Positions 10,264-23,843 of a stretch of DNA of 35,245 nt are shown in pieces (the first letter of the stretch is position 1; each line of letters begins with the position of its first letter). The DNA lies in assembly GCF_000708755.2 (NCBI RefSeq), contig NZ_JGVU02000008.1, positions 1 through 35,245 of the forward strand, in the 5' to 3' direction. This DNA comes from Metabacillus indicus LMG 22858 (GTDB taxonomy: Bacteria > Bacillota > Bacilli > Bacillales > Bacillaceae). Position numbers and translations under genes: made by a program. The notes under the pieces are model-generated. The model had not been told where the DNA came from. It searched no databases and worked only from the letters and a program-made list of their open reading frames with translations.

Positions 10264-10270
10264 ATTTGGT

Positions 10271-10386: not shown

Positions 10387-10452
10387 ATGAGAAGTGCTGT
10401 GAAATGGGGGTTGCAGCGGATGGGGAAGTGGGATGGAAAGATCGTGCAGTAA
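10387..10452 (+). CDS. Possible 21-residue microprotein with ideal Shine-Dalgarno
   Basis: This ORF encodes MRSAVKWGLQRMGKWDGKIVQ, a basic, tryptophan-containing peptide. It is preceded by AAGGAGGTG (10371-10379) with 7 bases to the ATG, a near-perfect anti-16S match not expected by chance in a gap. Its 3' half runs into the 52-bp tandem repeat array and its stop TAA lies in the first well-formed unit. I recognise no family. It might be translated, be a leader peptide, or be the rest of a decayed gene. Confidence 0.35.
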   Translation: MRSAVKWGLQRMGKWDGKIVQ

Positions 10453-10722
10453 AGCTGAGTTAGCAGCACAAATCAGTTATCCGGCTCAGCTGAAAATGCG
10501 GTAAACATGAGTTAGCAGCACAAAAGGGGAATCCGGAGCAGCCGAAAGAGCGGTAAAACAGAGTTAGCAGCACAAACCAGGTATCTGGAACAGGAGAAAG
10601 TGCGCTATACATAAGTTAGCAGCATAAACCAGGGAGCCGGAACTGCCGAAAGTGCTGTAAAACCGAGTCAGCAGCACAAACAAAGGAACCGGAACAGCCG
10701 AAAGTGCGCTAATGTTTTGCAG
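10391..10722. repeat. Tandem array with 52-bp period (hairpin-linker units)
   Basis: GAGTTAGCAGCACAAA or a close variant recurs at 10457, 10509, 10561, 10613 and 10665, exactly 52 bp apart. The companion segment GAAAGTGCGGTAAAACA and variants recurs with left arms at 10444, 10496, 10548, 10600, 10652 and 10704. A degenerate leading copy starts near 10394. Each junction can fold as a short GTGC...GCAC hairpin of 4-6 bp around a roughly 10-base loop, with a 26-base linker beginning AAA and ending GAAA. It occupies most of the 673-base gap between guaC and the LysM-CAP gene. No cas genes are near. Confidence 0.9.
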
Positions 10723-10878
10723 GCAGGACCTCGGCGGATTCGGTTACTGCTTCGATCGCCGATGTGATGCACTTCATTCCTCCTGCTGACTGACTAATCA
10801 AGTGCCGCTAGTCAACCCCTTTTTTTCGGTAAAAACTACCGCTATTCTTGCAAACTAGTATTCGTATAAAATAAAGCT

Positions 10879-11499
10879 ATGAAAACACTTAAATCTTTTT
10901 CTCTTATGTTGTTGGTTGTCGCTCTAGCCTTTGGATTCAGCAGTCAAGCAAGTGCTGCAAGTACATACACAGTTAAAAGCGGGGATACGATGTGGAAAAT
11001 CGCATCGAAGTATCAGGTTGGCGTTTCTGAATTGATTAAAGCCAATCCAAATGTTAAGAATGCTAATATGATCTATCCAGGACAGTCTCTTAACATCCCT
11101 TCTGGAAGCGCTTATCAAAGCATGGAAAGCGAAGTGGTTACGCTTGTAAATAAAGAGCGTGCCAAATACGGTTTAAAGCCGCTTGCCGCCAACTGGGAGG
11201 TTGCCCGTGTTGCACGGTACAAATCAGAAGATATGCGTGACAAAAACTACTTCAGTCACACATCGCCTACATACGGCTCTCCATTTGATATGATGAAGAG
11301 CTTCGGCATTCAGTATAGCTATGCAGGTGAGAACATTGCTGCCGGACAGACTACAGCTCAAAGTGTTGTAACTGCCTGGATGAACAGTGAAGGACACCGC
11401 AAAAACATTCTGTCTTCTAATTTCAAGGAAATCGGTGTTGGGTACGCCAAAGGCGGATCTTACGGCCACTATTGGACGCAGATGTTTATCAGCAAATAA
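10879..11499 (+). CDS. Secreted LysM-CAP domain protein
   Basis: This 206-residue exported protein has a signal peptide (residues 1-27, cleavage likely after SQASA-A), one LysM peptidoglycan-binding module (30-73, YTVKSGDTMWKIASKY to PGQSLNIP) and a CAP/SCP domain (87-203) with HTSP and GENIA...W...GHRKNIL motifs. It resembles YkwD/SafA-type cell-wall proteins; the biochemical role of bacterial CAP domains is poorly known. No Shine-Dalgarno precedes the ATG at 10879: the upstream bases are TATAAAATAAAGCT, which look more like a -10 element. The message may be leaderless or very poorly initiated. The next in-frame ATG (codon 10) also lacks a ribosome site and would cut into the signal peptide. 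Confidence 0.9.
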   Translation: MKTLKSFSLMLLVVALAFGFSSQASAASTYTVKSGDTMWKIASKYQVGVSELIKANPNVKNANMIYPGQSLNIPSGSAYQSMESEVVTLVNKERAKYGLKPLAANWEVARVARYKSEDMRDKNYFSHTSPTYGSPFDMMKSFGIQYSYAGENIAAGQTTAQSVVTAWMNSEGHRKNILSSNFKEIGVGYAKGGSYGHYWTQMFISK

Positions 11500-11516
11500 T
11501 GGACAAGGAGGAGACA

Positions 11517-11547
11517 GGGCAATCCGTTTACGGGTTGTCCTTTTTTA
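11517..11547 (+). terminator. Terminator of the LysM-CAP gene
   Basis: GGGCAATCCG and CGGGTTGTCC form a 10-bp stem with two G-T pairs around TTTA, followed by six T. Confidence 0.88.
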
Positions 11548-11608
11548 TGCTTTGAAAAACTTCTTATCATAAGCGGGAGTTCTGTTTTCATTTTTTTAAA
11601 AAACCCAC

Positions 11609-11614
11609 TATAAT
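11609..11614 (+). promoter_or_regulatory. Candidate -10 of the AI-2E family gene
   Basis: A perfect TATAAT; the expected -35 position (about 11586-11591) is poor. Transcription starting here, near 11621, would begin at or before the in-frame ATG at 11623, which favours the later start at 11662. Confidence 0.4.
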
Positions 11615-11661
11615 AAGCTTAGATGAAATTTAGAGTGCATAGAGAGAAATGGAGGACACTC

Positions 11662-12807
11662 ATGAAGCAGGCAAGCCCGAGAGTAGGTACGTTTAAGAGG
11701 TTTATCCTTAACAATAGATTTGTTCTGTTTCTTCTGATTCTGCTTTTGATTGGATTAAACATTCTTGTTTTTATGCAGGTATCGTTTATCTTTACACCGA
11801 TTGAAGTGCTGATTAAAACCATTCTTCTGCCCATCATCATGGCAGCGATTGTCTATTATCTGCTGAATCCCGTGGTGGATTTTTTTGAACGGAAAGGCGT
11901 ACGGAGAATTTATTCTATTTTGCTCCTGTTTGTTGTGATTGCAGGGCTGCTGACCATCCTGATTGTGTCGGTCATTCCGTTTTTAAAAGCGCAGGTTCTG
12001 AGTTTGATTGAAAGTTTTCCTCAATATACAAAAGATGTAGAGCTGCTTGTCATGCAGGTGGTCGGCAGCGATTTTGTTGATCAGGCACAGAAAACGCTGA
12101 ATATTAATGTTGCGGATCTGTCAAAGCAGGTGTCTGACCAGGCTTCCACAATCATCAATAATATGTTTGCGGGAATCGGGAATATTGTAGGAATCGTAAA
12201 AGACTTCATCCTGGCGATTGTGACACTGCCGTTCATTTTGTTTTATCTGTTAAAGGACGGAAAAAAACTTGGGCCATATGTTCTTAAATTTTTGCCCGTC
12301 AACCTCAGAAGTTCTACATTTAAAGTGATGCATGAAATGAATCAGCAGATCAGTTCATATATCCGCGGACAGATTATTGTCAGCTTCTGCATTGGCGCGC
12401 TTATGTATGTTGGCTTTTTAACGATCGGTCTTGAGTATGCTTCCCTGCTTGCCCTGATTGCGGCATTTACAAGCGTTGTTCCGTATCTTGGTCCGGCAAT
12501 TGCCATTACACCGGCTTTTATCATTGCGCTTGTCACATCACCGTTAATGGTTTTGAAGCTGATCATCGTATGGACTATTGTTCAATTGATTGAAGGGAAG
12601 TTTATTTCGCCTCAGATTATGGGACGGAATCTTCATATTCATCCGATTACCATTATTTTCGTGATATTGACGGCTGGGAATCTGTTTGGAGTAGTGGGGA
12701 TTATCCTTGCAGTACCGGGATATGCCGTGCTCAAGGTCATTGTGACCCACCTGTTTGAATGGATGAAAATCCGCAGCAATATGTATGAACAGAAAGGGAT
12801 TGAATGA
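11662..12807 (+). CDS. AI-2E family membrane transporter
   Basis: This polytopic membrane protein of 381 residues belongs to the AI-2E/PerM family (TqsA- and YdbI/YueF-like), with about seven to eight hydrophobic helices. Two lie near the N-terminus, then comes an amphipathic cytoplasmic-type region (about residues 100-180, with [16 protein letters not shown]), then the conserved C-terminal [30 protein letters not shown] and [12 protein letters not shown]. Substrates vary: AI-2 export, or Na+/Li+:H+ antiport in some bacilli. The start at 11662 has GGAGG 6 bases upstream; an ATG at 11623 is too close to the -10. It is monocistronic with its own terminator. Confidence 0.88.
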
Positions 12808-12842
12808 AGCATTTCTTCTTTAGAGAAGAGATGCTTTTTTGC
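12808..12842 (+). terminator. Terminator of the AI-2E family gene
   Basis: A 12-bp stem, AGCATTTCTTCT/AGAAGAGATGCT (one G-T pair), around TTAG, followed by T6. Confidence 0.92.
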
Positions 12843-12852
12843 ATACTCAAAC

Positions 12853-12877
12853 GAATAAACTTTTCAATAAAGGGTAT
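12853..12877 (+). promoter_or_regulatory. Possible sigma-B promoter of ohr
   Basis: GAATAA (12853-12858), a 13-base spacer, then GGGTAT (12872-12877). The -10 is a perfect sigma-B element and the -35 matches GTTTAA at 4 of 6. In B. subtilis ohrB is sigma-B dependent, which supports this reading. Confidence 0.45.
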
Positions 12878-12922
12878 ATAAAAAAGAGCAGGAAAGTTTG
12901 AATACGAAAGGGAGTATGAAAC

Positions 12923-13348
12923 ATGTCAGAAGCATTATTTACTACATCGGTTACAGCAGTAGGCGGACGGGAAGGGAAAGTACATTCATCAAATGACGTC
13001 ATCAACATGGATATTGCCATGCCGGGCTCACCGAGAGCGGACAGAGTGCCGAATGCAACAAATCCTGAGCAGCTCTTTGCAGCGGGATATGCGGCCTGCT
13101 TTGACGGAGCCCTTCAGCATATGGCAAGAAAAGAAAAAGTGAAGTTTGATTCTGAAGTAACGGCCAATGTCAGCTTCCTGAAAGACGAGTCCGACGGAGG
13201 CTTCAAGCTCGCGGTAAAACTCGACGTAAAGGGAACCGGCATTGAAAAGGACAAGCTTGAAGACCTCGTTCATAAAGCTCATGAATTCTGCCCGTATTCA
13301 AAGGCGACAAGAGGGAATATTGATGTGACGCTTGAAGCGCAGGCTTAA
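12923..13348 (+). CDS. ohr: Organic hydroperoxide reductase, Ohr/OsmC family
   Basis: Ohr reduces organic and fatty-acid hydroperoxides in the cytoplasm with a pair of reactive cysteines. The 141-residue protein carries both in their usual contexts: FAAGYAACFDGAL (Cys59) and HEFCPYSKATRGN (Cys123), so it is Ohr rather than OsmC type. AAAGGGAG (12907-12914) is the ribosome site. No ohrR repressor gene is adjacent, and the sigma-B-like promoter suggests a general-stress OhrB-type role rather than the peroxide-induced OhrA. It is followed by a long stable terminator. Confidence 0.95.
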   Translation: MSEALFTTSVTAVGGREGKVHSSNDVINMDIAMPGSPRADRVPNATNPEQLFAAGYAACFDGALQHMARKEKVKFDSEVTANVSFLKDESDGGFKLAVKLDVKGTGIEKDKLEDLVHKAHEFCPYSKATRGNIDVTLEAQA

Positions 13349-13356
13349 ATTCTTAT

Positions 13357-13397
13357 GAAAATGGTGCTTACTCAATTGAGTAGGCGCCATTTTTTTG
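13357..13397 (+). terminator. Terminator of ohr
   Basis: AAATGGTGCTTACTC pairs along its length with GAGTAGGCGCCATTT (two G-T pairs) around AATT, followed by T7. Confidence 0.95.
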
Positions 13398-13434
13398 CCC
13401 TGTCGAAACAGCAGTGCCGTTATTTAGGTCAATG

Positions 13435-13463
13435 TTGACAATCAGCAGAAAATACCTTAAAAT
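13435..13463 (+). promoter_or_regulatory. Sigma-A promoter of mhqO
   Basis: TTGACA (13435-13440), a 17-base spacer, then TAAAAT (13458-13463). The MhqR-type operator begins at the next base. Confidence 0.85.
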
Positions 13464-13481
13464 TATCTTGAATTCGAGATA
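13464..13481. promoter_or_regulatory. MhqR-type operator upstream of mhqO
   Basis: TATCTTGAATTCGAGATA is a near-perfect 18-bp palindrome matching the operator I remember for the quinone-responsive MarR-type repressor MhqR (TATCTCGAATTCGAGATA). It directly abuts the -10, so repressor binding would block initiation. It is the exact reverse complement of the operator at 17668-17685. Confidence 0.88.
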
Positions 13482-13541
13482 TCAACTCATGTTTATATAG
13501 ATAAAGGAAAGAGAAACTATTTTTAAAGGAGAGATGTTTCA

Positions 13542-14465
13542 ATGAAAACAGCGGGTATTCACCACATTACGGCCATTGTCGGCCATCCGCAGGAAAACGC
13601 TGATTTTTATGCGGGAATTCTTGGGCTTAGATTAGTGAAACAAACGGTTAACTTTGATGATCCTGGGACGTACCATCTTTATTTCGGAGATGAAGGGGGA
13701 AATCCTGGAACGATTATTACTTTTTTCCCTTGGCCGGATGCGTATCAGGGCACGATTGGAGACGGCCAGGTCGGTGTAACGTCTTATGCTGTTCCAAAAG
13801 GAGCTCTGCCGTTTTGGGAAGAAAGACTTGGGAGATACGGCGTGCCGTTTGAAAAAATGGGGCGGTTTGGCGAGTCATTTCTTGTGTTTGACGATCCTCA
13901 TGGACTGCATCTTGAGCTTGTTGAGAGGGAAGAAGGAAAACAGAACGCATGGGAGTTTGGCGGTGTAACAGCCAATGTTGGGATAAAAGGTTTCGCAGGT
14001 GCAACTCTCCTGTCCTCACGTCCTGAAAAAACGGCAGAACTTCTTGAAAAGGTGATGGGATATGAAAAAGTGGCCGAAGAGCGGGACTTTATCCGTTTTC
14101 GTTCAACGGCTGATATCGGAAACATCATTGATTTGAAGATGACTCCGATTGGACGGGGAAGAATGGGAGTAGGCACCGTTCATCACATTGCTTTCCGGGC
14201 AGAGGATGACAGCAATCAGCTTCAATGGCAGCAGCATGTCGCAAGGAGCGGCTATCAGGTGACACCTGTGCAGGACCGTCAGTATTTTAATGCGATCTAC
14301 TTCAGGGAGCACGGTGAGATCCTGTTTGAAATCGCAACAGATCCTCCAGGCTTTGCGCATGATGAAGAGGTGCTTGGTGAAAAACTTATGCTGCCGGAGC
14401 GGTATGAGCCTCAGAGGGACAAGATTGAGAAGGTGCTTGCACCGTTTGAAATAAGAGAAGTGTAA
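13542..14465 (+). CDS. mhqO: VOC-family ring-cleaving dioxygenase, MhqO type
   Basis: This predicted extradiol dioxygenase of the vicinal-oxygen-chelate fold is thought to open catechol or hydroquinone rings during detoxification. The 307-residue protein has two VOC modules (about residues 4-125 and 150-275). Plausible metal ligands are His8 (GIHHITA), His215 (TVHHIAF) and Glu263 (EILFEIATD). It matches B. subtilis MhqO closely in my memory (e.g. TYHLYFGDEGGNPGTIITFFPW). A strong promoter and MhqR operator lie upstream; AAAGGAGAG (13526-13534) is the ribosome site. In B. subtilis mhqO is part of an mhqNOP operon; here it is alone, with a terminator directly after. Confidence 0.93.
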   Translation: MKTAGIHHITAIVGHPQENADFYAGILGLRLVKQTVNFDDPGTYHLYFGDEGGNPGTIITFFPWPDAYQGTIGDGQVGVTSYAVPKGALPFWEERLGRYGVPFEKMGRFGESFLVFDDPHGLHLELVEREEGKQNAWEFGGVTANVGIKGFAGATLLSSRPEKTAELLEKVMGYEKVAEERDFIRFRSTADIGNIIDLKMTPIGRGRMGVGTVHHIAFRAEDDSNQLQWQQHVARSGYQVTPVQDRQYFNAIYFREHGEILFEIATDPPGFAHDEEVLGEKLMLPERYEPQRDKIEKVLAPFEIREV

Positions 14466-14473
14466 AAACCAAA

Positions 14474-14506
14474 AAAACCCCGACTCTGCATGAGTCGGGG
14501 TTTTAC
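14474..14506. terminator. Bidirectional terminator between mhqO and the GNAT gene
   Basis: A 13-bp perfect stem, AAAACCCCGACTC/GAGTCGGGGTTTT, with a 5-base loop. It is symmetrical, with A and T tracts on both sides, so it serves both the plus-strand mhqO and the minus-strand four-gene unit. Confidence 0.95.
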
Positions 14507-14512
14507 ACATTT

Positions 14513-15010
14513 TTAAAGAAACAGCACCATATGCTCTTCATCAAAATAGATGCCGTTCGCTTTAAGGGCTCTTTTTTCATAGCCATATACTGAAAAGCCA
14601 AGAGAGGAGTAGAGATGCCGTGCAGACTGGTTGCTGCTGACAACAGAAAGCTGCAGCTGCTCTGTGTCTTCAAGCTGACCGGCATGGTTAATAGCCGACG
14701 TCATAAGCTTCCTGCCGATTCCCTTTCCCCGGTAAGCAGGAGAGACAAACATCGCGAAGATAGAGGCTTTATGTTTGAGTTTCGCTTTCGTTTCAGGGAC
14801 AAGCGTAACAACCCCTGCAAGTGCATCCCCGTCAAAAGCGCCAAACGTAAATGTATGCTCAGCATCAAGTCTTGCTTTAAAGAAGTCGATTGTATAAAGC
14901 TGCTCTTCTTCATAGCTTGAGCCAAACGCTTCGGGGCTCGATTTCAGGCCTTCAAGGCGGATGCCGCGGTATGCGGCGGCATCATGTCCGTTTAGAATCC
15001 GGATATTCAT
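14513..15010 (-). CDS. GNAT family N-acetyltransferase
   Basis: This 165-residue single-domain GNAT protein shows the acetyl-CoA pyrophosphate loop SPAYRGKGIGRKLM (residues 90-103, with the R/Q-x-x-G-x-G/A element) and the C-terminal NQSARHLYSSLGF signature (127-139). The substrate is unknown; the family acetylates amines on antibiotics, polyamines, peptides and proteins. The start at 15010 has GGAGG 5 bases upstream (plus-strand 15016-15020). It is the last gene of a minus-strand run (AAA ATPase, TPR protein, DUF4385 protein, this gene) with no terminator between members and 53 bases after the DUF4385 stop, so it is probably co-transcribed. Confidence 0.88.
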   Translation of the reverse strand: MNIRILNGHDAAAYRGIRLEGLKSSPEAFGSSYEEEQLYTIDFFKARLDAEHTFTFGAFDGDALAGVVTLVPETKAKLKHKASIFAMFVSPAYRGKGIGRKLMTSAINHAGQLEDTEQLQLSVVSSNQSARHLYSSLGFSVYGYEKRALKANGIYFDEEHMVLFL

Positions 15011-15063
15011 AGGTTCCTCCAATAATGATTTTAAGTAAGATTGCAGCGCCTGAACGATTTCAT

Positions 15064-15510
15064 TCAGCCATACTTCTTCTGATGCTCTTTCTTCAATTTT
15101 AAATAGTCTTCATCTTCTCTGATTTTAATCCATTTCTCTTTGAAAATAGAAGCAGATTCCGCTTTTTCATCGTCAATGTCACGCTCGTGAAGGTCGCCGT
15201 CCTCCTTATACTTTCGACCGCCTTTATAATTGGCGTAGCGTCTGGCACGGGTGTAGCCCATCTGGATGAATTTCCGCGCCATGTCCATACCGACAAAATC
15301 GCCTTTTTCTTTGTACTCCTCATACATCGTGTAAATCGTTTCCGAAGATTCCCTCGCAATCACAGGCGTTTTAAACCGCCAGTGGGGAAGGATTTCTCCT
15401 TTATAAGGTTCAACAAGCAAAACGCCCTGCTCTCCTCTGCCGACCCGGTACTTTTCGGGATTCTTGCGAAAATCCGTATGTTCGAAGTCCTCATCATAAT
15501 TAAATGCCAT
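15064..15510 (-). CDS. DUF4385 family protein
   Basis: This 148-residue soluble protein is unusually rich in charged and aromatic residues (RKNPEKYRVGRGEQGVLLVEPY, LPHWRFKTP, RKFIQMGYTRARRYAN). I recognise it as the DUF4385 family, found in bacteria and some phages and lacking a known function. The start MAFNYDED at 15510 is chosen because AGAGGTG (plus-strand 15518-15524) lies 7 bases upstream; an in-frame ATG two codons earlier would be too close. There is no signal peptide or membrane segment. It follows the TPR-membrane gene by 40 bases, so it may belong to the same transcript. Confidence 0.82.
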   Translation of the reverse strand: MAFNYDEDFEHTDFRKNPEKYRVGRGEQGVLLVEPYKGEILPHWRFKTPVIARESSETIYTMYEEYKEKGDFVGMDMARKFIQMGYTRARRYANYKGGRKYKEDGDLHERDIDDEKAESASIFKEKWIKIREDEDYLKLKKEHQKKYG

Positions 15511-15550
15511 GTCCATCACCTCTGTACTCTTTACCCGAAAACAAAGAATG

Positions 15551-16510
15551 TTATCTGAAAATGGCAGCATACAAACCGGTCAAAACAAGTGCGGCAAACA
15601 TGACGGCTGCGACAGCCTTCCTCCTGCTGAATTCAGGTTTGGGTTTTTTATAGCCAATCTTCCGGCTGACAAGTTTACCGGCTGTGAAATGGCTGATGTA
15701 ATAGGGAACAAGAATGACGATCACATACAGCCAGAAAAGCGGATTGAACACAATGAAGAAAAAAATGAACACCGGCCAGAAAAGAATTCCGGCTGTTCTT
15801 CTGATGAAAGAATGAGTCTGCAGGATACGAAGCAAATACCTGTGCAGAGCATATTCCGTTTTCAGCATGTCGAGGTATTGCTCTCTGTAATCCTGATCTT
15901 CAGGGTCAATTGCAGCAGCGCTGCGGCTCAGCTCTCTTGCCTGCTTGAAATCGCCGCGGTTGAAGGCCGTATTGGCCAGAGTATAGTAGACGTAGGGATT
16001 ATCCTCATTGCTTTTCAAAGCCATCTGCTCGTATTCTTTTGATTGTTTCTTTTTCCCTGCAAGCAGGAGAAGGTTGCTGTACGCTGCAAGGTATGTGGCC
16101 TCTTCGGTTTCATGAACAAGTGCAAGCTCCATGAGCCCCAACGCCTTCTTCCGTTTATTCTTTTGCAGGGCTCTGAGCGCTTTAAGATAATAGAGGTGCG
16201 CAGTGTCCGGGTAGAGGTTGAGAGCACTTTCTGCAGCCGCATCAAATGCTTTCCATTCCCCAAGATTGAACAGGGCCATAACAAGCATGAGGTGACCAGT
16301 AAAGTCTTCCGGATCTTTACTGAGGGCTTCCTTTGAAAAATGGACTGCTGCGGGATAATCTTCCTTATCAGCATAGATCCTGGCAAGAAGTGAAAACGAA
16401 CGGGCATCCTCCGGATTTGACGCAATAAGGGCATGTGCTTCCTCAATCGCCTGGCTGTAACTTTTCCAGTCTGTCAGTTTGCGGATCCTCTCCTCATAAA
16501 AGCTGAACAT
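15551..16510 (-). CDS. TPR protein with C-terminal membrane anchor
   Basis: This 319-residue protein has a helical TPR region (about residues 15-210). Repeats are visible as ...NPEDARSFSLLARIYADKEDYPAAVHFSKEA..., ...NPYVYYTLANTAFNRGDFKQARELSR... and similar. Strong hydrophobic helices follow at about 241-256, 257-275 and 298-316, with basic residues between. TPR stretches normally bind partner proteins, so it could recruit something to the membrane. Its ATG overlaps the stop of the upstream AAA ATPase gene in a TGATG junction, which indicates translational coupling and a likely 1:1 functional link. I do not recognise a named family. Confidence 0.85.
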   Translation of the reverse strand: MFSFYEERIRKLTDWKSYSQAIEEAHALIASNPEDARSFSLLARIYADKEDYPAAVHFSKEALSKDPEDFTGHLMLVMALFNLGEWKAFDAAAESALNLYPDTAHLYYLKALRALQKNKRKKALGLMELALVHETEEATYLAAYSNLLLLAGKKKQSKEYEQMALKSNEDNPYVYYTLANTAFNRGDFKQARELSRSAAAIDPEDQDYREQYLDMLKTEYALHRYLLRILQTHSFIRRTAGILFWPVFIFFFIVFNPLFWLYVIVILVPYYISHFTAGKLVSRKIGYKKPKPEFSRRKAVAAVMFAALVLTGLYAAIFR

Positions 16511-17457
16511 CAGCGGATGCCATGTGCTTTCATATAGTCCAGAACGTGCTGATAATCCTTATTTGTATCGCTGAACGTTGCATAGTTCTTGGCGGTTGAA
16601 AACCATTCAAGCGTCGTAGGGTTCCGGTTCTTTGCGGCTTTTAGGAGATCTGCATGCGACATTGGCTGCAGGGAGCCCTGTTCGAGTGAGCGTTCAATGG
16701 CTTTTGATACGGCATCATCCACAACCTGAGTCAGATCAGCGCCTGAGAAGTGCGAGGTTGCCTTAGCCACTTTCGATAAATCAAGTTTTTCCTGTGGTTT
16801 ATCTTTTGTTTTGAGCGTCAAAATCAGCTCGCGCTCATCCTGTGAGGGAGGCGGGATGAAAATGAGAGAGTTGAACCTTCCCGGTCTCCGCAGCGCCGGG
16901 TCAAGATACCAAGGCGTGTTCGTCGCCCCGATGATGTAAACCTGTTCGTTGAACGACTGCAGTCCATCAAGCTCCAAAAGAAGCTGATTGACAATCATCC
17001 GGTCGTGGTGCTGACTCATGCGGTGCCGGTTTCCCCCAAGGGCGTCAAGCTCATCAATGAACAGCACACAAGGCTTCTGCTCCCGTGCTTTCTCAAAAAC
17101 ATCATGCAGATTGTGCTCGCTCTGGCCGACATACATGGAAAGGATCGCCTGCAGCTCAAGGTGGATAAAGCTTGCATTGATTTCTCCTGCAATCGCTTTT
17201 GCCAAAAATGTTTTCCCGCATCCCGGAGGCCCGTAAAGCAGAAGGCTGCCGCCGCTCTTTTTACCAAAAGCCTGAAAAAACTCAGGCGACTGGATCGGCA
17301 TAATAAAATCCATGCGAATCCGCTTTTTTACATCCTCAAGTCCGCCGACATCATCAAATGTCTCCTTCGGCTGAACCGTCTCAACCAGGCTGTTTTTATC
17401 CTTATCAAACTGAATCACTTTCAAATTTCTGCGCTTTTTATCATCATCTGAGCTCAC
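16510..17457 (-). CDS. AAA family ATPase (single-domain, Cdc48/FtsH-like)
   Basis: This classical AAA ATPase of 315 residues has Walker A GPPGCGKT (76-83), an aromatic pore loop MYVG (108-111), Walker B VLFIDELDAL (131-140), sensor-1 GATN (177-180), arginine fingers in DPALRRPGRF (186-195), and a small C-terminal lid with FSGADLTQVVDDAV. The N-terminal extension is only about 35 residues, with no protease or membrane domain, so it probably remodels substrates for a partner. The start is a GTG at 17457, because AGGAGG (plus-strand 17465-17470) is 7 bases from it but only 1 base from an in-frame ATG at 17463. It is coupled to the TPR-membrane gene by a TGATG overlap. Confidence 0.9.
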   Translation of the reverse strand: MSSDDDKKRRNLKVIQFDKDKNSLVETVQPKETFDDVGGLEDVKKRIRMDFIMPIQSPEFFQAFGKKSGGSLLLYGPPGCGKTFLAKAIAGEINASFIHLELQAILSMYVGQSEHNLHDVFEKAREQKPCVLFIDELDALGGNRHRMSQHHDRMIVNQLLLELDGLQSFNEQVYIIGATNTPWYLDPALRRPGRFNSLIFIPPPSQDERELILTLKTKDKPQEKLDLSKVAKATSHFSGADLTQVVDDAVSKAIERSLEQGSLQPMSHADLLKAAKNRNPTTLEWFSTAKNYATFSDTNKDYQHVLDYMKAHGIR

Positions 17458-17494
17458 AACCATACCTCCTGTACTGAACAATCATTCTTCTTTG

Positions 17495-17523
17495 ATACTA
17501 GCAAAATATGAAAGTATTTCCAA
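17495..17523 (-). promoter_or_regulatory. Candidate promoter of the AAA-TPR-DUF4385-GNAT unit
   Basis: On the minus strand TTGGAA (17523-17518) is followed by a 17-base spacer and TAGTAT (17500-17495), about 38 bases before the GTG start. Confidence 0.5.
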
Positions 17524-17572
17524 GATGAAGAATACCTGGTTGGGGAGGGAGTTAAAACGACCGGGAATGCAT

Positions 17573-17607
17573 GATTTACATCCAACTATTGCAGATTTAC
17601 AGCCAAC
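17573..17607 (+). repeat. Direct repeat with 21-bp spacing upstream of the second dioxygenase promoter
   Basis: GATTTACATCCAAC (17573-17586) and GATTTACAGCCAAC (17594-17607) match at 13 of 14 bases and lie exactly 21 bp apart, two helical turns, ending 21 bases before the -35 at 17629. The spacing suits side-by-side binding of a dimeric regulator. This is inference only. Confidence 0.5.
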
Positions 17608-17628
17608 ATCCTATCAAATCCCAAATCA

Positions 17629-17657
17629 TTGACATCTGCCTGCAGCGGGTGTATAGT
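17629..17657 (+). promoter_or_regulatory. Sigma-A promoter of the second VOC dioxygenase
   Basis: TTGACA (17629-17634), a 17-base spacer, then TATAGT (17652-17657). The MhqR-type operator lies 10 bases downstream of the -10, around the expected start of transcription. Confidence 0.85.
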
Positions 17658-17667
17658 AAATCTATAA

Positions 17668-17685
17668 TATCTCGAATTCAAGATA
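17668..17685. promoter_or_regulatory. MhqR-type operator upstream of the second dioxygenase
   Basis: TATCTCGAATTCAAGATA is an 18-bp near-palindrome of the MhqR type and the exact reverse complement of 13464-13481. It covers the likely transcription start. Confidence 0.88.
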
Positions 17686-17704
17686 ATTTTATGGAGGGAT
17701 TTAC

Positions 17705-18682
17705 ATGCTGCCGTTAAAAGGGATTCACCATGTATCAGCCATTACAGCAAAAGCACCTCAAAACTATGAGTTTTATACGAAAACACTTGGTCTTCGGTTA
17801 ATTAAGAAAACAGTTAATCAGGACGATGTATCTGTGTATCATTTGTTTTACGGGGATGAAAAAGGAAACCCGGGCACGGAGCTGACGTTTTTTGAAATCG
17901 CCAATGCAGGCAGAGTCCACGAAGGAGTCAACAGCATTTCCGCCACATCGCTCCGCGTGAAAAGCGATGCGGCACTAACCTACTGGAAGCAGCGCTTTGA
18001 GGAGCACAATGTGGAGCACGGAGACATTGCCGAAGCATTTGGCCGCCTGACTCTTCCTTTCAGAGATTTTGAAGGGCAGCGCCTGATTCTGGTATCTGAT
18101 GAGAACAATTCGGGAGTTACCGCCGGAACCCCTTGGGACAAGAGCCCGGTCCCGGCTGAATATGCGATTACCGGACTTGGTCCAGTCAGGCTGACAGTGG
18201 CCGTTGCCGAAAGAACAATAGAAATTCTGACAGACATTCTCGGTTTCCGGGCGAAAGGCAGTTATCCGTCCGAGGCACCCGGCCAGCCGGACATTCAGGT
18301 GTTTGAAACAGGAGAAGGCGGCACGGGAGCAGAGGTTCATATTGAAGAGCGCCTTGATCTGCCGCAGGAGCGTCTCGGTCGCGGAGGTGTTCACCACGTG
18401 GCATTCCGCGTTGAAAATGAAGAAGAGATGCACAAGTGGATTGAGAAACTGAAAGCTGAACGCATACCGAGTTCAGGATTTGTAGACCGTTTTTACTTCC
18501 GTTCCCTGTACTTCCGCGAGCCGAACGGCATCCTGTTCGAGCTTGCAACAGATGGCCCGGGATTTGATACGGATGAGGAACTTGAGCATCTCGGCGAAGC
18601 ACTCGCTCTTCCTCCATTCCTTGAGCCGCGTCGTGCTGAAATTGAAGCAAAGCTGAAGCCCCTGGATACATCACTCAGCTGA
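17705..18682 (+). CDS. VOC-family ring-cleaving dioxygenase, MhqA/MhqE type
   Basis: A second predicted extradiol dioxygenase, 325 residues, with two VOC modules. Candidate metal ligands are His9 (GIHHVSA), His231 (GVHHVAF) and Glu279 (GILFELATD). It differs clearly from the mhqO product at 13542-14465 and looks like the MhqA/MhqE branch; I cannot decide which of those it is. GGAGGG (17693-17698) precedes the ATG. It shares the promoter-operator design of mhqO, so both genes are probably induced together by quinones, diamide-like electrophiles or catechol. No mhqR gene is in the window, so the repressor must act from elsewhere. Confidence 0.9.
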   Translation: MLPLKGIHHVSAITAKAPQNYEFYTKTLGLRLIKKTVNQDDVSVYHLFYGDEKGNPGTELTFFEIANAGRVHEGVNSISATSLRVKSDAALTYWKQRFEEHNVEHGDIAEAFGRLTLPFRDFEGQRLILVSDENNSGVTAGTPWDKSPVPAEYAITGLGPVRLTVAVAERTIEILTDILGFRAKGSYPSEAPGQPDIQVFETGEGGTGAEVHIEERLDLPQERLGRGGVHHVAFRVENEEEMHKWIEKLKAERIPSSGFVDRFYFRSLYFREPNGILFELATDGPGFDTDEELEHLGEALALPPFLEPRRAEIEAKLKPLDTSLS

Positions 18683-18687
18683 CACAG

Positions 18688-18724
18688 TAAAACCCCGGCC
18701 TGATTTTCAGGACCGGGGTTTTAG
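18688..18724 (+). terminator. Terminator of the second dioxygenase gene
   Basis: AAAACCCCGG pairs with CCGGGGTTTT around a 14-base loop that itself has TGA/TCA complementarity; T-rich sequence follows. Confidence 0.9.
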
Positions 18725-18770
18725 GTTTATTCATTAACTGTACAATAAAAACTTAAAGGACAAGGTCTCA

Positions 18771-18788
18771 ATTAAACGTTTGTTTAAT
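18771..18788. promoter_or_regulatory. Palindromic operator-like site upstream of the YqcI/YcgG gene
   Basis: ATTAAACGTTTGTTTAAT has perfect 7-bp arms (ATTAAAC/GTTTAAT) around GTTT. It looks like a TetR-family operator. No adjacent regulator gene is present. It lies 86 bases before the start codon. Confidence 0.5.
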
Positions 18789-18873
18789 ATTTATTTAATG
18801 GATTAAAGCACTTGATTGCAGGGTATGGAAAGAGAGACAAGATGCTGTTCACAATCTATTAAGGAGTGAAACG

Positions 18874-19602
18874 ATGATCACGGTGCCTAAATATTTGCTT
18901 GAAAAAGAAGATATGACCAATCCTGAAATCGTTCCCGAATGGGTCATCAGGGAATATCAGAATTTCAGAAGTGTCGTCACAAATAAAACCTTTCCGTGCT
19001 ACTTCGGCATGGCAGCCGAAAAAAAAGGAGAGCTGAGATATGCGTACATATCAAAAGAAGACTGGTCCAATCTGCCGGAAGCCCTGATTGCGTTTAAAAA
19101 GCTGTTTGATGAAGCCGAGAAGCTCATTCGCCATGGTCTGTTCGTGTTCGTTGAACCGGAGGAGGACGAGAAATCGATTCCGTACTACCGGGAGTATTTC
19201 TGGAATGTGCTTCAGTACCTTCATGATATCGACAAAGAGCCTTGGCCGAAGGATTACCCGCAGGATCCGGATCATCATCTTTGGGCATTTTCGTTTGCCG
19301 ATGAGCCGTATTTCGTTTTTGGAAATGCCCCCGCCTACAAGCAGCGGAAAACAAGAGACCTCGGGGCAAGCTTAGTGCTTGGTTTCCAGCCGCGCCGCAT
19401 TTTTGAAGGGCTTGAAGGCACGTCAGAGGGAGGCAGCATGTCCCGCGAAAAAGTGAGAGAGCGGGTAGAAAAGTGGGATCAGCTTCCAAAGCACCCGAAC
19501 ATCAGCCACTACGGGGACCCGGATCACAGAGAGTGGAAGCAGTACTTCATCGGAGATGACATTGAACCCATACAGGGCAAATGCCCTTTTCACCATAAAT
19601 AA
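18874..19602 (+). CDS. YqcI/YcgG family protein (possible heme-dependent N-oxygenase)
   Basis: This 242-residue soluble protein carries FPCYFGM near residues 47-53, a HLWAFSFADEPYFVFGNAP core, RDLGASLVLGFQPRRIFE, and a C-terminal CPFHH. I recognise the YqcI/YcgG family. From memory, relatives in this family include heme-dependent N-hydroxylases of guanidino compounds (GntA, DcsA), in which conserved His/Cys residues hold heme. Whether this protein binds heme is unproven. AAGGAG (18860-18865) serves as ribosome site for the ATG at 18874. A palindromic operator-like site lies upstream and the gene is monocistronic. Confidence 0.82.
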   Translation: MITVPKYLLEKEDMTNPEIVPEWVIREYQNFRSVVTNKTFPCYFGMAAEKKGELRYAYISKEDWSNLPEALIAFKKLFDEAEKLIRHGLFVFVEPEEDEKSIPYYREYFWNVLQYLHDIDKEPWPKDYPQDPDHHLWAFSFADEPYFVFGNAPAYKQRKTRDLGASLVLGFQPRRIFEGLEGTSEGGSMSREKVRERVEKWDQLPKHPNISHYGDPDHREWKQYFIGDDIEPIQGKCPFHHK

Positions 19603-19605
19603 TAA

Positions 19606-19641
19606 GCAGAAGCTGCCCGGCATTTGCCGGGCAGCTTCTGC
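19606..19641. terminator. 16-bp perfect hairpin between converging genes
   Basis: GCAGAAGCTGCCCGGC and GCCGGGCAGCTTCTGC pair perfectly around ATTT. No T run follows on the plus strand; the minus strand has only TTATTATTT. It is a very stable stem and probably a shared terminator or RNA-end stabiliser for the YqcI/YcgG and MFS genes. Confidence 0.75.
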
Positions 19642-19660
19642 ATGCTGGAGTTCTAATCAC

Positions 19661-20902
19661 TTACCTGTACTTCCTCAAATCCTTCAGACAGAACCACCCG
19701 ATCAGACCGATGATCGTAAGAAGTAAACCGCAAATAAGGAGCACGCGGCCGCCGCCAAAGATATCGGTGAAAAACGAAGCTGCAGCGAGGCCCGCAGGAG
19801 GAAAAACACTCGTAAGAGCACCGATTGTTCCGAACACTCTTCCCTGCATGCTGCTCGTTACCTCAAGTCTGAGTATGACATGTATGAGCAGGGTACTGAA
19901 TGAAAATAAAAATCCGACCAGCAAAATGACGGGAATCCCAATCACAGCCGAGTCAATTTTTCCAAGAATGGCATAGAGCGGACCGAGGGCGATTGTACTG
20001 CCAAGAATAATCATGCCTCTATGAACCAATTTCTTTTCAAATGCCATAATCAGTCCTGCCCCGGCCATGTAACCAAGGGGGATGCTTGCTTCAATCAGGC
20101 CGAATTCAGCAGGGGATGCTTTCCACTCTTTAATGGCAATTACCTGAATGATCATTAGCGATGTGGTAAAAAACAAAATGAGAACAGGAGATAGAATGGT
20201 AATTGCCCGTGCGAACGGTTCTTGCCATATATATGTGAATCCAGTGAGCAAATCCTGCTTAAACGTTGTTTTTTCTGCATAGGTCCGCTTGTGTTCTGGG
20301 AAATTTTTCACCGCGAGTACGAGAATGACAGATACAAAGAACATAAGCGCATCAATTAAAATAGCCGCAACACCGCCATAAGCAGCCACAACAATTCCGC
20401 CAGCTGCAAACCCCAGTGTTCTTGCAATATTGTCTGCAAGACTCATAGCCCCTGTTGCTGCCTGGATTTTCTCTTTGCCGACCACATCAGTGAGCGAAGC
20501 GTTAAAAGCAGGAGCCTTGAACAGCCCGGAAAGGGCCGTGCCTGCAGTAAGAAGGATGATGACCCAGAACGGAGTTTCCACCGCAATTGCTGCGGCAAGG
20601 CAAACCACAAGCAGAGCCCTTATCAAGTCTGATATCCACATCATTTTTTTCCGGTTCATCCTGTCTGCCGCCGTGCCTGCTATGGAGGCAAAACACGTGG
20701 TCACAAGCATATGGGTAATCAGGACGGCAGACATAAGGGAGGCGCTGTCATAGGTTTTCAGCACCCAGATATTCAGGGCGATCGTATGGAACGTCCCTCC
20801 AAAAATGGAAAGGGTATAAGCGGTGAAAAGAGACAAAAAGGTTTTGTTTGACCATAAGCTTTGCTTTTGCAGCAAGACGTGAGCAGACTGAGGTTCAGCC
20901 AT
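19661..20902 (-). CDS. MFS efflux transporter (DHA3/MFS_3-like)
   Basis: This 413-residue major-facilitator protein has about twelve hydrophobic helices and the loop 2-3 motif GTAADRMNRKKMM (a variant of G-x-x-x-D-R-x-x-R). It resembles the MefA/enterobactin-exporter group (LFKAPAFNASLTDVV, SLADNIARTLGFAAGG), which exports macrolides, siderophores or other small molecules; the substrate is unknown. AAAGGGG (plus-strand 20912-20918) lies 9 bases before the ATG. It is divergent from the methyltransferase-cupin pair, with two identical palindromic operators between, so the three genes are probably controlled by the same regulator. Confidence 0.9.
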   Translation of the reverse strand: MAEPQSAHVLLQKQSLWSNKTFLSLFTAYTLSIFGGTFHTIALNIWVLKTYDSASLMSAVLITHMLVTTCFASIAGTAADRMNRKKMMWISDLIRALLVVCLAAAIAVETPFWVIILLTAGTALSGLFKAPAFNASLTDVVGKEKIQAATGAMSLADNIARTLGFAAGGIVVAAYGGVAAILIDALMFFVSVILVLAVKNFPEHKRTYAEKTTFKQDLLTGFTYIWQEPFARAITILSPVLILFFTTSLMIIQVIAIKEWKASPAEFGLIEASIPLGYMAGAGLIMAFEKKLVHRGMIILGSTIALGPLYAILGKIDSAVIGIPVILLVGFLFSFSTLLIHVILRLEVTSSMQGRVFGTIGALTSVFPPAGLAAASFFTDIFGGGRVLLICGLLLTIIGLIGWFCLKDLRKYR

Positions 20903-20918
20903 TATGTTCAGCCCCTTT

Positions 20919-20936
20919 ACTTAATCGTTTAAGTTA
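20919..20936. promoter_or_regulatory. Operator copy 1 between MFS and methyltransferase genes
   Basis: ACTTAATCGTTTAAGTTA contains the palindrome ACTTAA-TCGT-TTAAGT. The same 18 bases recur at 20977-20994. This copy sits next to the MFS ribosome site. Confidence 0.75.
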
Positions 20937-20976
20937 CGCTGGTTTACAATCTGTTTAAAAGACGAGTAAAGAACTA

Positions 20977-20994
20977 ACTTAATCGTTTAAGTTA
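20977..20994. promoter_or_regulatory. Operator copy 2 between MFS and methyltransferase genes
   Basis: Identical in all 18 bases and in orientation to 20919-20936, with start points 58 bp apart. Paired palindromes in a divergent promoter region point to a TetR- or MarR-type repressor encoded elsewhere. Confidence 0.75.
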
Positions 20995-21107
20995 AGAATA
21001 TGCAGTTTCATCCCAGCTGTCAATCTCTCTTTTTTGGGGCGGGGATTGTTTACAATCATCTAATTGGTGATAAAGATAAGAAAAAGACGGAAATAGAGGT
21101 GCGGAAC

Positions 21108-21719
21108 ATGTTTTCAGCATTCACAAAAAATTTCAGCAGGCCAAAAGGTTTCTTAGGAATTGTAGCAGGCAAAATCATGGCACTTGAAAACACAACGATT
21201 AATAAATGGACAATCGGCAAACTGAAGATAAGGCCTGGGGACCGCGTTCTGGAAATTGGATTTGGTCCGGGCTACAGTATTGGTTTCATGCTGAAGCATT
21301 ATCGCAGAGTCATTATAGACGGAGTGGATGTTTCTGAAACGATGAAGGAACAGGCAGAAAAGCAGTTCAGCACCTATGTGAAAAATGGACGCGTGAAAGT
21401 AATGAAGGCCGATGCCGAAACAGTCGAACTTCCTGCGAACACGTACGACAAGCTGCTTTCAGTCAACAATTACACGATTTGGAATGACCCGAGAGCAGGG
21501 CTTGAAAATCTTACGAAGTCCCTGAAGCCCGGAGGAATGGCCGCGATCACGATGCAGCCCAGGGAAGAAGATGCATCAGCCGAAAAAACAAAAATGTTCG
21601 GCAGGCAGATCCGCGATGATATGCTCGCCTGCGGATATGAAGATGTAAGGGTATCCTTTAAAAAAGTGCGTCCTGAGCTGACTGTCTGCGTGACAGGCAT
21701 CAAAAAAGGAGGAAGATGA
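21108..21719 (+). CDS. Class I SAM-dependent methyltransferase
   Basis: This 203-residue Rossmann-fold methyltransferase has SAM-binding motif I VLEIGFGPG (47-55), an acidic IDGVDVSETM strand-2 end, a DAETVELP motif II region and LKPGGMAAITM. It is of the UbiE/small-molecule type; the substrate is unknown. The start at 21108 is chosen because GAGGTG (21096-21101) lies 6 bases upstream; the reading frame is open back to 21000, but there the ATG overlaps the operator region and lacks a ribosome site. The stop is followed directly by the cupin ATG, so the two form an operon opposite an MFS exporter. Confidence 0.88.
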   Translation: MFSAFTKNFSRPKGFLGIVAGKIMALENTTINKWTIGKLKIRPGDRVLEIGFGPGYSIGFMLKHYRRVIIDGVDVSETMKEQAEKQFSTYVKNGRVKVMKADAETVELPANTYDKLLSVNNYTIWNDPRAGLENLTKSLKPGGMAAITMQPREEDASAEKTKMFGRQIRDDMLACGYEDVRVSFKKVRPELTVCVTGIKKGGR

Positions 21720-22217
21720 ATGAACATCCAGCATGAGCTGTTTGAAGGAGATGGAACGATACCGAACAACACAGAGCTTCCGCTGCTCGTCTACAAAACC
21801 GCTTTTTCTGAAAAAGAGGAATTTGAAAATGCCCTAAAAAAGAACAGCTGGAACGGAGCCTGGGTCAACGGAGTCTACAGCTATCATCATTTTCACAGTT
21901 CCGCGCATGAAGTGCTCGGCGTACTCAGCGGAAGGGCTGAGGTTCTTTTTGGAGGGGAGGATGGACGCAAACTTCTATTGGAAAAGGGCGATGTGGCTAT
22001 CATTCCGGCCGGAGTAGGCCATAAGTGCCTGCAAAAAGATGCGGACTTCCAGGTCATGGGGGCCTATCCGGACAATCAGGAAATGGATATGTGCACCGGA
22101 AAACCGGAGGAATATGAGAATGCCTTCAGCCGGATTAAGCAGGTTCCGTTGCCTTTAAATGACCCTTTTTTCGGGAGAGATGGACCTCTGTTTGAGTACT
22201 GGAAAGCTGGTGAATGA
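21720..22217 (+). CDS. Cupin-domain protein, YjlB-like
   Basis: This 165-residue single-cupin protein has YHHFHSSAHEVLGVLSGRAEVLFGGE (cupin motif 1, candidate metal ligands His57, His59, His63) and GDVAIIPAGVGHKC (motif 2, His101), so a metal site is likely. It resembles B. subtilis YjlB, an uncharacterised cupin. AAAGGAGGAAG (21706-21716) is an excellent ribosome site, placed inside the end of the methyltransferase gene; the ATG begins at the base after that gene's stop. The 3' end merges into the 53-bp palindromic repeat array. Confidence 0.88.
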   Translation: MNIQHELFEGDGTIPNNTELPLLVYKTAFSEKEEFENALKKNSWNGAWVNGVYSYHHFHSSAHEVLGVLSGRAEVLFGGEDGRKLLLEKGDVAIIPAGVGHKCLQKDADFQVMGAYPDNQEMDMCTGKPEEYENAFSRIKQVPLPLNDPFFGRDGPLFEYWKAGE

Positions 22218-22382
22218 CGCCACAACGCTGGGCGCATCATAAGGGAAAGTGGCGCAACTCGCCGGAATGACGCCACTTTTCTGATTGCATCGTAAAAGAA
22301 TGTGGCGCAACTCGCCGGAATGACGCCACAAATCCCACAGCATCATAAGAGAAAATGGCGCAACTCACCGGAATGACGCAAA
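22212..22382. repeat. Tandem array with 53-bp period (palindromic units)
   Basis: GAATGACGC begins at 22212, 22265, 22318 and 22371, exactly 53 bp apart. Full hairpins GTGGCG...CGCCAC occupy 22249-22276 and 22302-22329, with a degenerate third at 22355-22382. The shared loop reads CAACTCGCCGGAATGA. Linkers are 25 bases, beginning with AAA or a related T-rich variant and ending in A-rich GAAA-like sequence. The first unit starts at the stop codon of the cupin gene and has lost its left arm. The array fills most of the 255-base gap before the aldehyde dehydrogenase gene and may end cupin transcription. Confidence 0.92.
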
Positions 22383-22472: not shown

Positions 22473-23843
22473 ATGGACAACATACACTCCATTCTTGCGG
22501 CCCAAAGAGAGTATTTTTTAAAAGGACATACAAGAAAACTCGAAGACCGCAAAAAAAACCTGGTTCGTCTCCGCAAGTCGATAAAAAGAAACGAGCAGGC
22601 CATTATAGATGCACTGAATAAAGACTTAAACAAATCTGAGTTTGAGGCTTATACAACGGAAATCGGGATCCTTCTTGAAGAGATCTCTTTTGCCGGCAAA
22701 CATTTAAAAAAGTGGGCAGCTCCTGAAAAAGTAAAAACGGCGGTTACCCATATCGGCACGAGAGGAAGAATTGTTCCTGAACCTTATGGAACCGCGCTGA
22801 TTATCGCCCCGTGGAACTATCCCTTCCAGCTTGCTTTATCGCCGCTTGTCGGTGCCATATCGGCAGGGAATACGGCCGTATTAAAACCTTCTGAATTCGC
22901 TCCTGCTGTATCCGGCCTGCTGAAACGTATGATTGAAGAGACGTTTCCAAAGGAGTACATCGCCGTTATTGAAGGCGGAATTGAAACCAATCAGCAACTG
23001 CTGGCAGAGAAATTTGATACGATTTTCTTTACCGGCAGCGTGCCGGTCGGCAAAATTGTGATGGAGGCAGCATCGAAGCATCTGACACCTGTTACTCTTG
23101 AACTTGGCGGGAAAAGTCCATGTATTGTCCACAATGACGCTGACCTTAAGCTCTCAGCCCGCAGAATTGCTTTCGGAAAATTTACAAATGCAGGTCAAAC
23201 CTGTATTGCACCTGACTATTTAATGGTTCATGAAGACATAAAAGAGGAATTTATGACCCTACTCAAGTCAGAAATTGAGCAAATGTTCGGCAAGGATCCT
23301 CTCCAGAATGAAAAGTACAGCCGAATGATCAGCGAAAAGCATTTTGACCGTCTGACAGAGTTCATCAAGGAAGGGACCATTCTTTATGGAGGCGGGTCAA
23401 AGAAAGAGACGCTTACTATTGCTCCGACCATCCTTGGGGATGTAAGCACAGATTCTCCTGTCATGCAGGAGGAGATCTTCGGACCGGTTTTCCCTGTACT
23501 CCAGTACAGGGAGCTTGAAGAAGCCATCTCTTTTATCCAGGCACGTCCTAAACCGCTTGCGCTTTATTTATTTACTTCAGGCAAGGAGACAGAAGAGCAG
23601 GTGGTCAGCAGGGTTTCTTTTGGAGGAGGCTGCATCAATGATACGCTCATGCATATCGCAACTCCGCACCTGCCGTTTGGAGGAGTAGGAGAAAGCGGAA
23701 TGGGCAACTATCACGGCAAATTCAGCTTCGATGCTTTTTCTCACTATAAAAGCGTTCTGAATCAGACAACCAGATTTGATTTTAGCTTCCGTTATCCGAA
23801 TGCGAAAAACAGCTTGAAGATTGTGAAGCGGCTATTGAAATAG
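22473..23843 (+). CDS. ywdH: Aldehyde dehydrogenase, class 3 type (YwdH)
   Basis: This NAD(P)-dependent oxidoreductase of 456 residues oxidises aldehydes to acids. Catalytic residues are visible: Cys244 in NAGQTCIAPDY and Glu210 in TLELGGKSP. FFTGSVPVGK gives the cofactor-binding turn and IIAPWNYPFQL the conserved active-site Asn. The short form without an N-terminal extension and the C-terminal LPFGGVGESGMGNYHG agree with class 3 fatty-aldehyde enzymes and with B. subtilis YwdH. AAAAGGCGG (22454-22462) is the ribosome site. It has its own promoter and terminator. Substrate is not determinable, but medium- or long-chain and aromatic aldehydes are typical. Confidence 0.93.
   Translation: MDNIHSILAAQREYFLKGHTRKLEDRKKNLVRLRKSIKRNEQAIIDALNKDLNKSEFEAYTTEIGILLEEISFAGKHLKKWAAPEKVKTAVTHIGTRGRIVPEPYGTALIIAPWNYPFQLALSPLVGAISAGNTAVLKPSEFAPAVSGLLKRMIEETFPKEYIAVIEGGIETNQQLLAEKFDTIFFTGSVPVGKIVMEAASKHLTPVTLELGGKSPCIVHNDADLKLSARRIAFGKFTNAGQTCIAPDYLMVHEDIKEEFMTLLKSEIEQMFGKDPLQNEKYSRMISEKHFDRLTEFIKEGTILYGGGSKKETLTIAPTILGDVSTDSPVMQEEIFGPVFPVLQYRELEEAISFIQARPKPLALYLFTSGKETEEQVVSRVSFGGGCINDTLMHIATPHLPFGGVGESGMGNYHGKFSFDAFSHYKSVLNQTTRFDFSFRYPNAKNSLKIVKRLLK

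Follow-up and report, generated by a model that had tools for sequence, protein, structure and literature searches.

Tandem arrays of 52 and 53 bp in Metabacillus indicus belong to a known class of constant-period repeats and may be sites for a DNA-binding protein

Two noncoding tandem arrays were examined in a 35,245-nucleotide stretch of the Metabacillus indicus LMG 22858 genome (assembly GCF_000708755.2, contig NZ_JGVU02000008.1; the window), one with a period of 52 bp (array 1, type 1) and one with a period of 53 bp (array 2, type 2). Both are members of the published 52-nucleotide tandem repeats of constant size and variable sequence, so the class itself is already known. In both types the unit consists of a conserved dyad core of about 34 bp and a locus-specific linker of about 18 bp whose length is fixed. 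To the published description we add this anatomy, the geometry of the dyad, a test for compensatory change, empty sites in related genomes, the presence of different types in one intergenic gap between close species, a terminator-like hairpin linked to type 2, and a test of transposase-driven mobility. The whole explanation that we favour, with a probability of about 0.5, is that the arrays are tandem sites, spaced roughly five helical turns apart, for a putative DNA-binding protein.

The class was reportedly first described by Subirana and Messeguer in the Journal of Bacteriology in 2020. The same authors later counted 1886 arrays of 51-53 nucleotides in 176 Bacillus genomes, with several families per species, and proposed either a polymerising protein or small RNAs (IJMS 2021, PMC8161180). 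Bacillus indicus appears in Table 1 of that study with 90 arrays on average, 96.6% of them of 52 nucleotides, and array positions were found to be partly conserved between strains in B. coagulans. The arrays described here have in common with those repeats a period of 51-53 bp, sequences specific to the species, dozens of arrays and several unrelated families in a single genome, and short signals together with their reverse in one repeat; nothing was found that separates the two sets. The published search was set to at least four repeats, compared with 5.2 copies in array 1, 2.8 in array 2 and 5.6 at the array-2 locus of the relative G006 (G000 denotes the genome of the window, G001 to G006 other members of the genus). 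A B. indicus consensus from the published set (7_52_18) agrees with a G000 array (L190a) at 44 of 47 positions, the best of 2000 shuffles reaching 26.

Results

Tandem Repeats Finder (TRF) placed array 1 at 10444-10712 (period 52, 5.2 copies, 76% matches) and array 2 at 22234-22379 (period 53, 2.8 copies, 82% matches). At a TRF score of at least 40 the window holds no further tandem array, a third row being the double period of array 1, and 50 shuffles of the window (2-mers permuted inside 500-base blocks) gave no array with a period of 30 or more at a score of 30. The two arrays of an earlier note on this sequence are thus real; in the interval 10444-22382 that it gave, they are separated by ordinary genes over about 11.5 kb. 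The layout it described also holds, namely GTG...CAC over 26 bp in array 1 and 28 bp in array 2, with linkers of 26 and 25 bp respectively. Its framing words were kept unevenly: the right arm runs into AAA in all five units of array 1 (GCACAAA in four, GCATAAA in one), whereas array 2 has CCACAAA exactly once besides CCACTTT, CCACAAC and one decayed unit. On the left side, array 1 reads GAAAGTG three times, GAAAATG and GAAAGAG once each and GATCGTG at the first unit, and array 2 reads GAAAGTG, GAATGTG and GAAAATG once each. Over other loci, type-1 arrays have the consensus AAAGTG...GCANAAA and type-2 arrays AAAGTG...CACAAA.

The division of the unit into core and linker emerged from 16 type-1 arrays (86 units) and 20 type-2 arrays (87 units) of G000. 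Core identity within arrays was 0.87 for type 1 and 0.86 for type 2, and 0.70 between loci. Linker identity was 0.79 and 0.81 within arrays and dropped to 0.31 and 0.33 between loci, so that the linker keeps its length and loses its sequence. The type-2 core is a dyad (GTGGC-NN-CAYT-N6-ARTG-NN-GCCAC, written GTGGCNNCAYT-N6-ARTGNNGCCAC for array 2 itself), and the dyad of type 1 is weaker, with GTGYT-NN-TAA-like arms. The earlier note had also raised compensatory stem changes, and these failed to appear: in the consensuses of 18 type-1 and 39 type-2 arrays, none of the variable pairs was complementary above the level of 1000 shuffles (smallest p 0.27 and 0.85). RNAalifold likewise found no consensus structure among 28 units of type 1; for 11 units of type 2 it gave five pairs, none of them showing a compensatory change. 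Lack of compensation at variable pairs indicates that these are not hairpins evolving under pairing; a dyad kept as sequence rather than as pairing points to a protein on double-stranded DNA.

Dyads are also present in the published families. Testing 25 of the 27 family consensuses in Table 1 of PMC8161180 (400 shuffles each) revealed a 10-bp dyad at p≤0.05 in 14 and at p≤0.01 in 11. The distance between arm centres on one side is 15-17 or 25-28 bp in 13 of these significant cases; the remaining one has 21/31. The two spacing classes differ by about one helical turn, and the two sides of the unit total five turns. Edge units resemble their array consensus less (0.88 and 0.87) than do inner units (0.92; 41 arrays, p 1.3e-6), as unequal exchange predicts.

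The 4.13 Mb of G000, in which the window is contig C8, were searched with profile models built from sequence only, R1 from 28 type-1 units and R2 from 11 type-2 units. At E≤0.001 there were at least 75 matches to R1 and at least 89 to R2, both lower bounds since 150 of about 1,500 candidates were scored for each. The match coordinates were read as 14 type-1 and 21 type-2 loci (about 35), and at one locus (L032) arrays of the two types adjoin each other. The period is kept, as the earlier note had anticipated: among arrays preselected at a TRF period of 51-54, and with one M. idriensis array entered twice (L047, L087), 93 of 95 type-1 unit intervals measure 52 bp and 187 of 194 type-2 intervals 52 or 53 bp (139 of 53 bp, 48 of 52 bp).

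An unselected sample of 400 kb of G000 in 20 stretches (TRF score ≥50, period ≥15) contained ten arrays with a period of 52/53, four of 122-125 and seven of 18-24, with no array between periods 25 and 110. These ten come from loci L178-L197; loci L171-L175 were taken separately as presumed counterparts of G006 arrays. Only one of the ten is type 1 and none is type 2. A pattern test allowing two substitutions assigns five of the other nine to a third superfamily, B; the remaining arrays, of which two lie in L190, one in L191 and one in L193, were placed with B by eye only. Half-sites of B resemble TGACCCTTCA, GTACCCTCAA or GTGCCATCAA, and its unit runs as 10 bp, about 17 bp, the 10 bp inverted, and about 15 bp. 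Further B arrays occur in stretches taken for other purposes (L161, L165, L171, L174, L175); L174 of G000 (B) and, in G006, L122 (type 1) were typed by their array consensus. The 122-125-bp arrays form a second dispersed tandem family, marked by the words GTCCAGCTCC and TTCTGACAG (Table 1).

Under stricter filters R1 matched 6 of 80 genomes of the family, which are six of the seven in the genus and none of the 73 others; R2 matched five of the seven and a third model, R3, two (G000 and G006). G005, of the same genus, matched none of the three models, and no array of period 52/53 was found in 100 kb each of G005 and of three genomes from other genera of the family (G077, G062, G008). A scan of the GTDB collection with the type-2 pattern, from which the window's own genome was possibly left out, returned one stretch, from Metabacillus idriensis DSM 19097, which is available from a public collection. 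B-type matches also lie on the small second contig, possibly a plasmid, of the two-contig G006 genome (C2:67016-67430 and 101416-101517).

Gain, loss and change of type between close species

Both window arrays are present in G006, with 8.7 copies of array 1 and 5.6 of array 2. In G001, G002, G004 and G005 the site of array 1 is 63-65 bp instead of a 482-bp segment, and array 2 is absent at the same place. G003 was left out at both sites, as only the left gene was matched for array 1 and nothing for array 2. Across the LysM/CAP gene from its empty array-1 site, G004 carries a long type-1-like array (C19:14236-14581).

Behind the enolase gene (Pfam PF00113, PF03952) an array is found in six of the seven species, of type 1 in G000, G001, G003 and G004 and of type 2 in G006 and G002, with none in G005. 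Enolase identity singles out two closest pairs, G000/G006 (98.3%) and G002/G004 (98.5%), and array type differs inside each. A wider comparison of G000 with G006 used 31 G000 arrays that could be anchored to the left and right in the G006 stretches, nine more being without such anchors and L170, a second copy of L018, dropped. Twenty of the 31 have the same type in G006, three another type (L018 1/2, L021 1/B, L171 B/2) and eight no TRF array; these fractions are biased, since the G006 stretches were selected for arrays and L171 itself came to light through a G006 match. Among the eight, G006 has decayed type-2 units at L024 and L033, none at L034, L038 and L035, and at least one R2 match at L031. 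At L027 G006 has a 122-bp element where G000 has the 52/53-bp array, and at L030 the 53-bp array is missing and the 122-bp element is present, as in G000.

Unrelated arrays in the same intergenic gap suggest DNA sites for a putative protein. Different types in one gap could also come from reuse of a few permissive gaps, or from losing half of a mixed array such as L032. The earlier note had proposed one family of elements evolving in type. Its idea of a shared system gains strength from types that can share one gap in close species, and the outcome it named as contrary, different families with unrelated periods, did not arise, as the families differ and the period is the same. Homology of the two sequences was, however, not demonstrated, and superfamily B has the same period. 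Overall the note was right on layout and general pattern, and its interpretation is partly supported.

Genomic context

Based on simple gene calls, with expectations by number of gaps, 48 arrays fall into 26 co-directional, 15 convergent and 7 divergent gaps (expected 33.4, 4.6 and 9.9; convergent p 2.7e-5). The excess in convergent gaps is seen in types 1 and 2 together (n=36; 20 co-directional, 13 convergent against 3.5 expected, 3 divergent; p 1.6e-5), and the 12 B arrays comprise 6 co-directional, 2 convergent and 4 divergent. Array 1 itself sits in a divergent and array 2 in a co-directional gap.

Of 20 type-2 arrays in G000, 12 have a terminator-like hairpin, CCGRACTA..TAGTYCGG-T4, no more than 260 bp away, compared with 4 of 30 others (p 0.0014; examples at L024, L027, L034 and L038); in G006 this hairpin is near 8 of 18 type-2 and 2 of 15 other arrays. 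As background it occurs once in the 400-kb G000 sample and four times in 259 kb of G006 stretches. It was found at neither window array. The word GAGGCTGGGAC or its reverse complement occurs near 4 of the 20 type-2 arrays, both occurring near two. By eye, the hairpin at L034, L038 and L030 lies within a segment missing from G006, which has another terminator-like hairpin there. At L171 one and the same hairpin accompanies the B array of G000 and the type-2 array (L080) of G006. These observations suggest that terminator and type-2 array may spread together as one segment, which may later be overwritten.

Features of the window and the 122-125-bp family are given in Table 1. The left edge of array 1 is decayed where G006 has a more regular unit. 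A 21-codon open frame at 10387-10452, preceded by a ribosome-site-like GGAGG, ends within the first array-1 unit and is probably a chance product because G006 has no ATG there. Upstream of array 2, the half-site GAATGACGCCAC includes the TGA stop codon of the cupin gene. Elsewhere in the window, Rfam matches a glmS ribozyme (6570-6735), the small RNA BsrC (26721-26807) and an S-adenosylmethionine (SAM) riboswitch (29171-29281).

Table 1 Coordinates of the arrays, their parts and neighbours in the window, and of the 122-125-bp family in two genomes
Feature	Position	Strand	Basis
Array 1, type 1, period 52	10444..10712	+	TRF and unit listing
Array 1, five 26-bp dyad cores	10444-10469, 10496-10521, 10548-10573, 10600-10625, 10652-10677	+	
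Array 1, terminal left half-site	10704-10712	+	
Array 1 left edge, decayed type-1 unit(s)	10390..10443	+	by reading
Array 2, type 2, period 53	22249..22382	+	TRF and unit listing
Array 2, 28-bp dyad cores	22249-22276, 22302-22329, 22355-22382 (decayed)	+	
Further type-2 core, right half-site GAATGACGCCAC	22212..22223	+	
Left neighbour of array 1, IMP dehydrogenase/GMP reductase family gene, presumably guaC-like	9222..10265	-	Pfam PF00478
Right neighbour of array 1, LysM and CAP domain protein, which we take to be YkwD/SafA-like	10879..11499	+	Pfam PF01476, PF00188
Left neighbour of array 2, cupin-domain protein	21720..22217	+	Pfam PF07883
Right neighbour of array 2, aldehyde dehydrogenase family	22473..23843	+	Pfam PF00171
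122-125-bp family, G000	L180:3773-4079, L192:8005-8511, L192:15116-15494, L196:10623-10922, L030:4616-4900		
122-125-bp family, G006	L159:19383-19844, L169:8857-9236		

Discussion

We propose that each core would be the double-stranded DNA site of a putative dimeric, sequence-specific protein, either one protein or a few paralogues with one per array type, and that dimers on adjacent units would be in mutual contact. With units 52-53 bp apart, that is five helical turns, the dimers would lie on one face of the DNA, and such assemblies between genes could bridge or fix the DNA as a nucleoid anchor or insulator. The arrays would grow, shrink and homogenise by unequal exchange, with decay at the edges, and would be gained or lost between close species, type 2 often together with its terminator hairpin. 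This reading draws on the fixed spacing with a free linker, the one period across sequence families, the dyads of the published consensuses and their arm spacings, edge decay, the convergent-gap excess, the empty sites and the different types in the same gap; variable dyad positions without compensation fit protein contacts but would not be expected under pairing. Several observations pull the other way. The contrast between core and linker is partly ascertainment, since arrays were found by core similarity, which leaves the linker figure unaffected. The arm-spacing windows of 15-17 and 25-28 bp were picked after the values were known, and the same dyad test, a weak one, was significant in just 21 of 95 single-array consensuses of the genus, where spacings of 15-18 (9) and 20-25 (12) do not form two clean classes. 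The 400-kb sample, nine of whose ten arrays are neither type 1 nor type 2, lies in 5 co-directional, 1 convergent and 4 divergent gaps, without convergent bias. Type-2 cores are able to form an RNA hairpin, and 52-nucleotide arrays are transcribed in B. coagulans (PMC8161180, PMC8625621).

The arrays may alternatively be selfish or neutral satellites without function for the cell, their period set by the array-making process (recombination, replication or repair acting on a five-turn length), a view we regard as doubtful but deserving real weight. It would account for presence and absence between close species, the fast change in size from 5.2 to 8.7 copies of array 1, the decaying edges, and a relative, G005, without match to the three models or array in its 100-kb sample. 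It would not lead one to expect a conserved core beside a randomised linker or a dyad kept in sequence, and we know of no process that copies in 52-bp steps. Clearly unlikely, in our judgement, are small or 3' untranslated-region RNAs acting through folded units, a role that is one of the two ideas put forward in PMC8161180 and that the transcription in B. coagulans and the folding of single cores (-8.5 and -12.3 kcal/mol) would suit. RNAalifold gave type 1 no structure and type 2 its five uncompensated pairs, the larger set of consensuses lacks covariation, arrays in co-directional gaps lie (by reading) in both orientations to the genes, and at gathering scores Rfam gave no match over the arrays.

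Backup or bidirectional transcription terminators are very unlikely, even though type 2 on one strand is a stem followed by T3-T5 and in four relatives the cupin gene is followed by a hairpin-like stretch at the place where G000 has just array 2: type-1 stems are weak, several loci (by reading) have the array behind an ordinary terminator-like hairpin already, and the fixed period is left unexplained. Least credible are palindromes like the repetitive extragenic palindromic (REP) sequences or bacterial interspersed mosaic elements (BIME), moved by a Y1 REP-associated tyrosine transposase (RAYT). The arrays share with these an intergenic location, palindromy and several families per genome, and a Y1 transposase gene occurs once in G000 and twice in G003. 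Its domain PF01797, which in a control matched 5 of 14 known genomes, including E. coli, is however absent from the array carriers G006, G004, G002 and G001; the arrays are head-to-tail with a fixed period rather than single or paired palindromes, and the stem lacks compensatory upkeep. RAYT as a general mover in these genomes is therefore refuted, unless a diverged RAYT escaped Pfam.

Other candidates were also set aside. Clustered regularly interspaced short palindromic repeats (CRISPR) would have unique spacers, and the linkers are 79-81% identical within an array. The array-1 linker is absent, by eye, from the empty sites inspected, which makes host DNA taken up at insertion an improbable source. 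Tyrosine-recombinase core sites such as dif measure 28 bp in an 11-6-11 arrangement; within one array the six central bases vary from unit to unit, making strand exchange there unlikely. A replication-direction bias seems unlikely, as array orientations in G006 look mixed among the matches listed.

Among other repeats, the mycobacterial interspersed repetitive unit-variable number tandem repeats (MIRU-VNTR) of Mycobacterium tuberculosis are likewise dispersed, intergenic and tandem, of 50-100 bp and with changing copy number, but have related sequences and several unit lengths. The CENP-B box of primate alpha satellite offers an analogy only, in that a short protein site is kept while the rest of the tandem unit drifts; the binding protein here is putative, and the domain of life another. 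BOX elements are a sequence family with end modules and a repeated middle module. According to PMC3049150, those of Streptococcus pneumoniae are also small and dispersed, and most relatives have almost none. BOX elements differ in lacking one constant period across sequences that are unrelated. REP palindromes with RAYT, as described in PMC3733652, are similarly palindromic, often located behind genes and between convergent ones, and of several types per genome, whereas the present arrays are tandem at a fixed 52-53 bp and G001, G002, G004 and G006 lack the RAYT-type domain.

A literature search, which excluded supplements and most subscription papers, found no report of a mechanism, type replacement, dyad geometry or linked terminator for this class, which has been in print since 2020-2021 without a function. 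A more specific form of the protein-site explanation, which we hold tentatively and think rather unlikely, is that paralogous DNA-binding proteins, one per array type, would build assemblies of five-turn pitch at fixed intergenic slots, where the type is replaceable while slot and pitch stay. If true, this would be a bacterial counterpart of the turnover of satellites and box proteins at eukaryotic centromeres. The defined dyad core, the linker kept in length only, and a slot occupied by two types in close species make the function of the published class testable at the bench.

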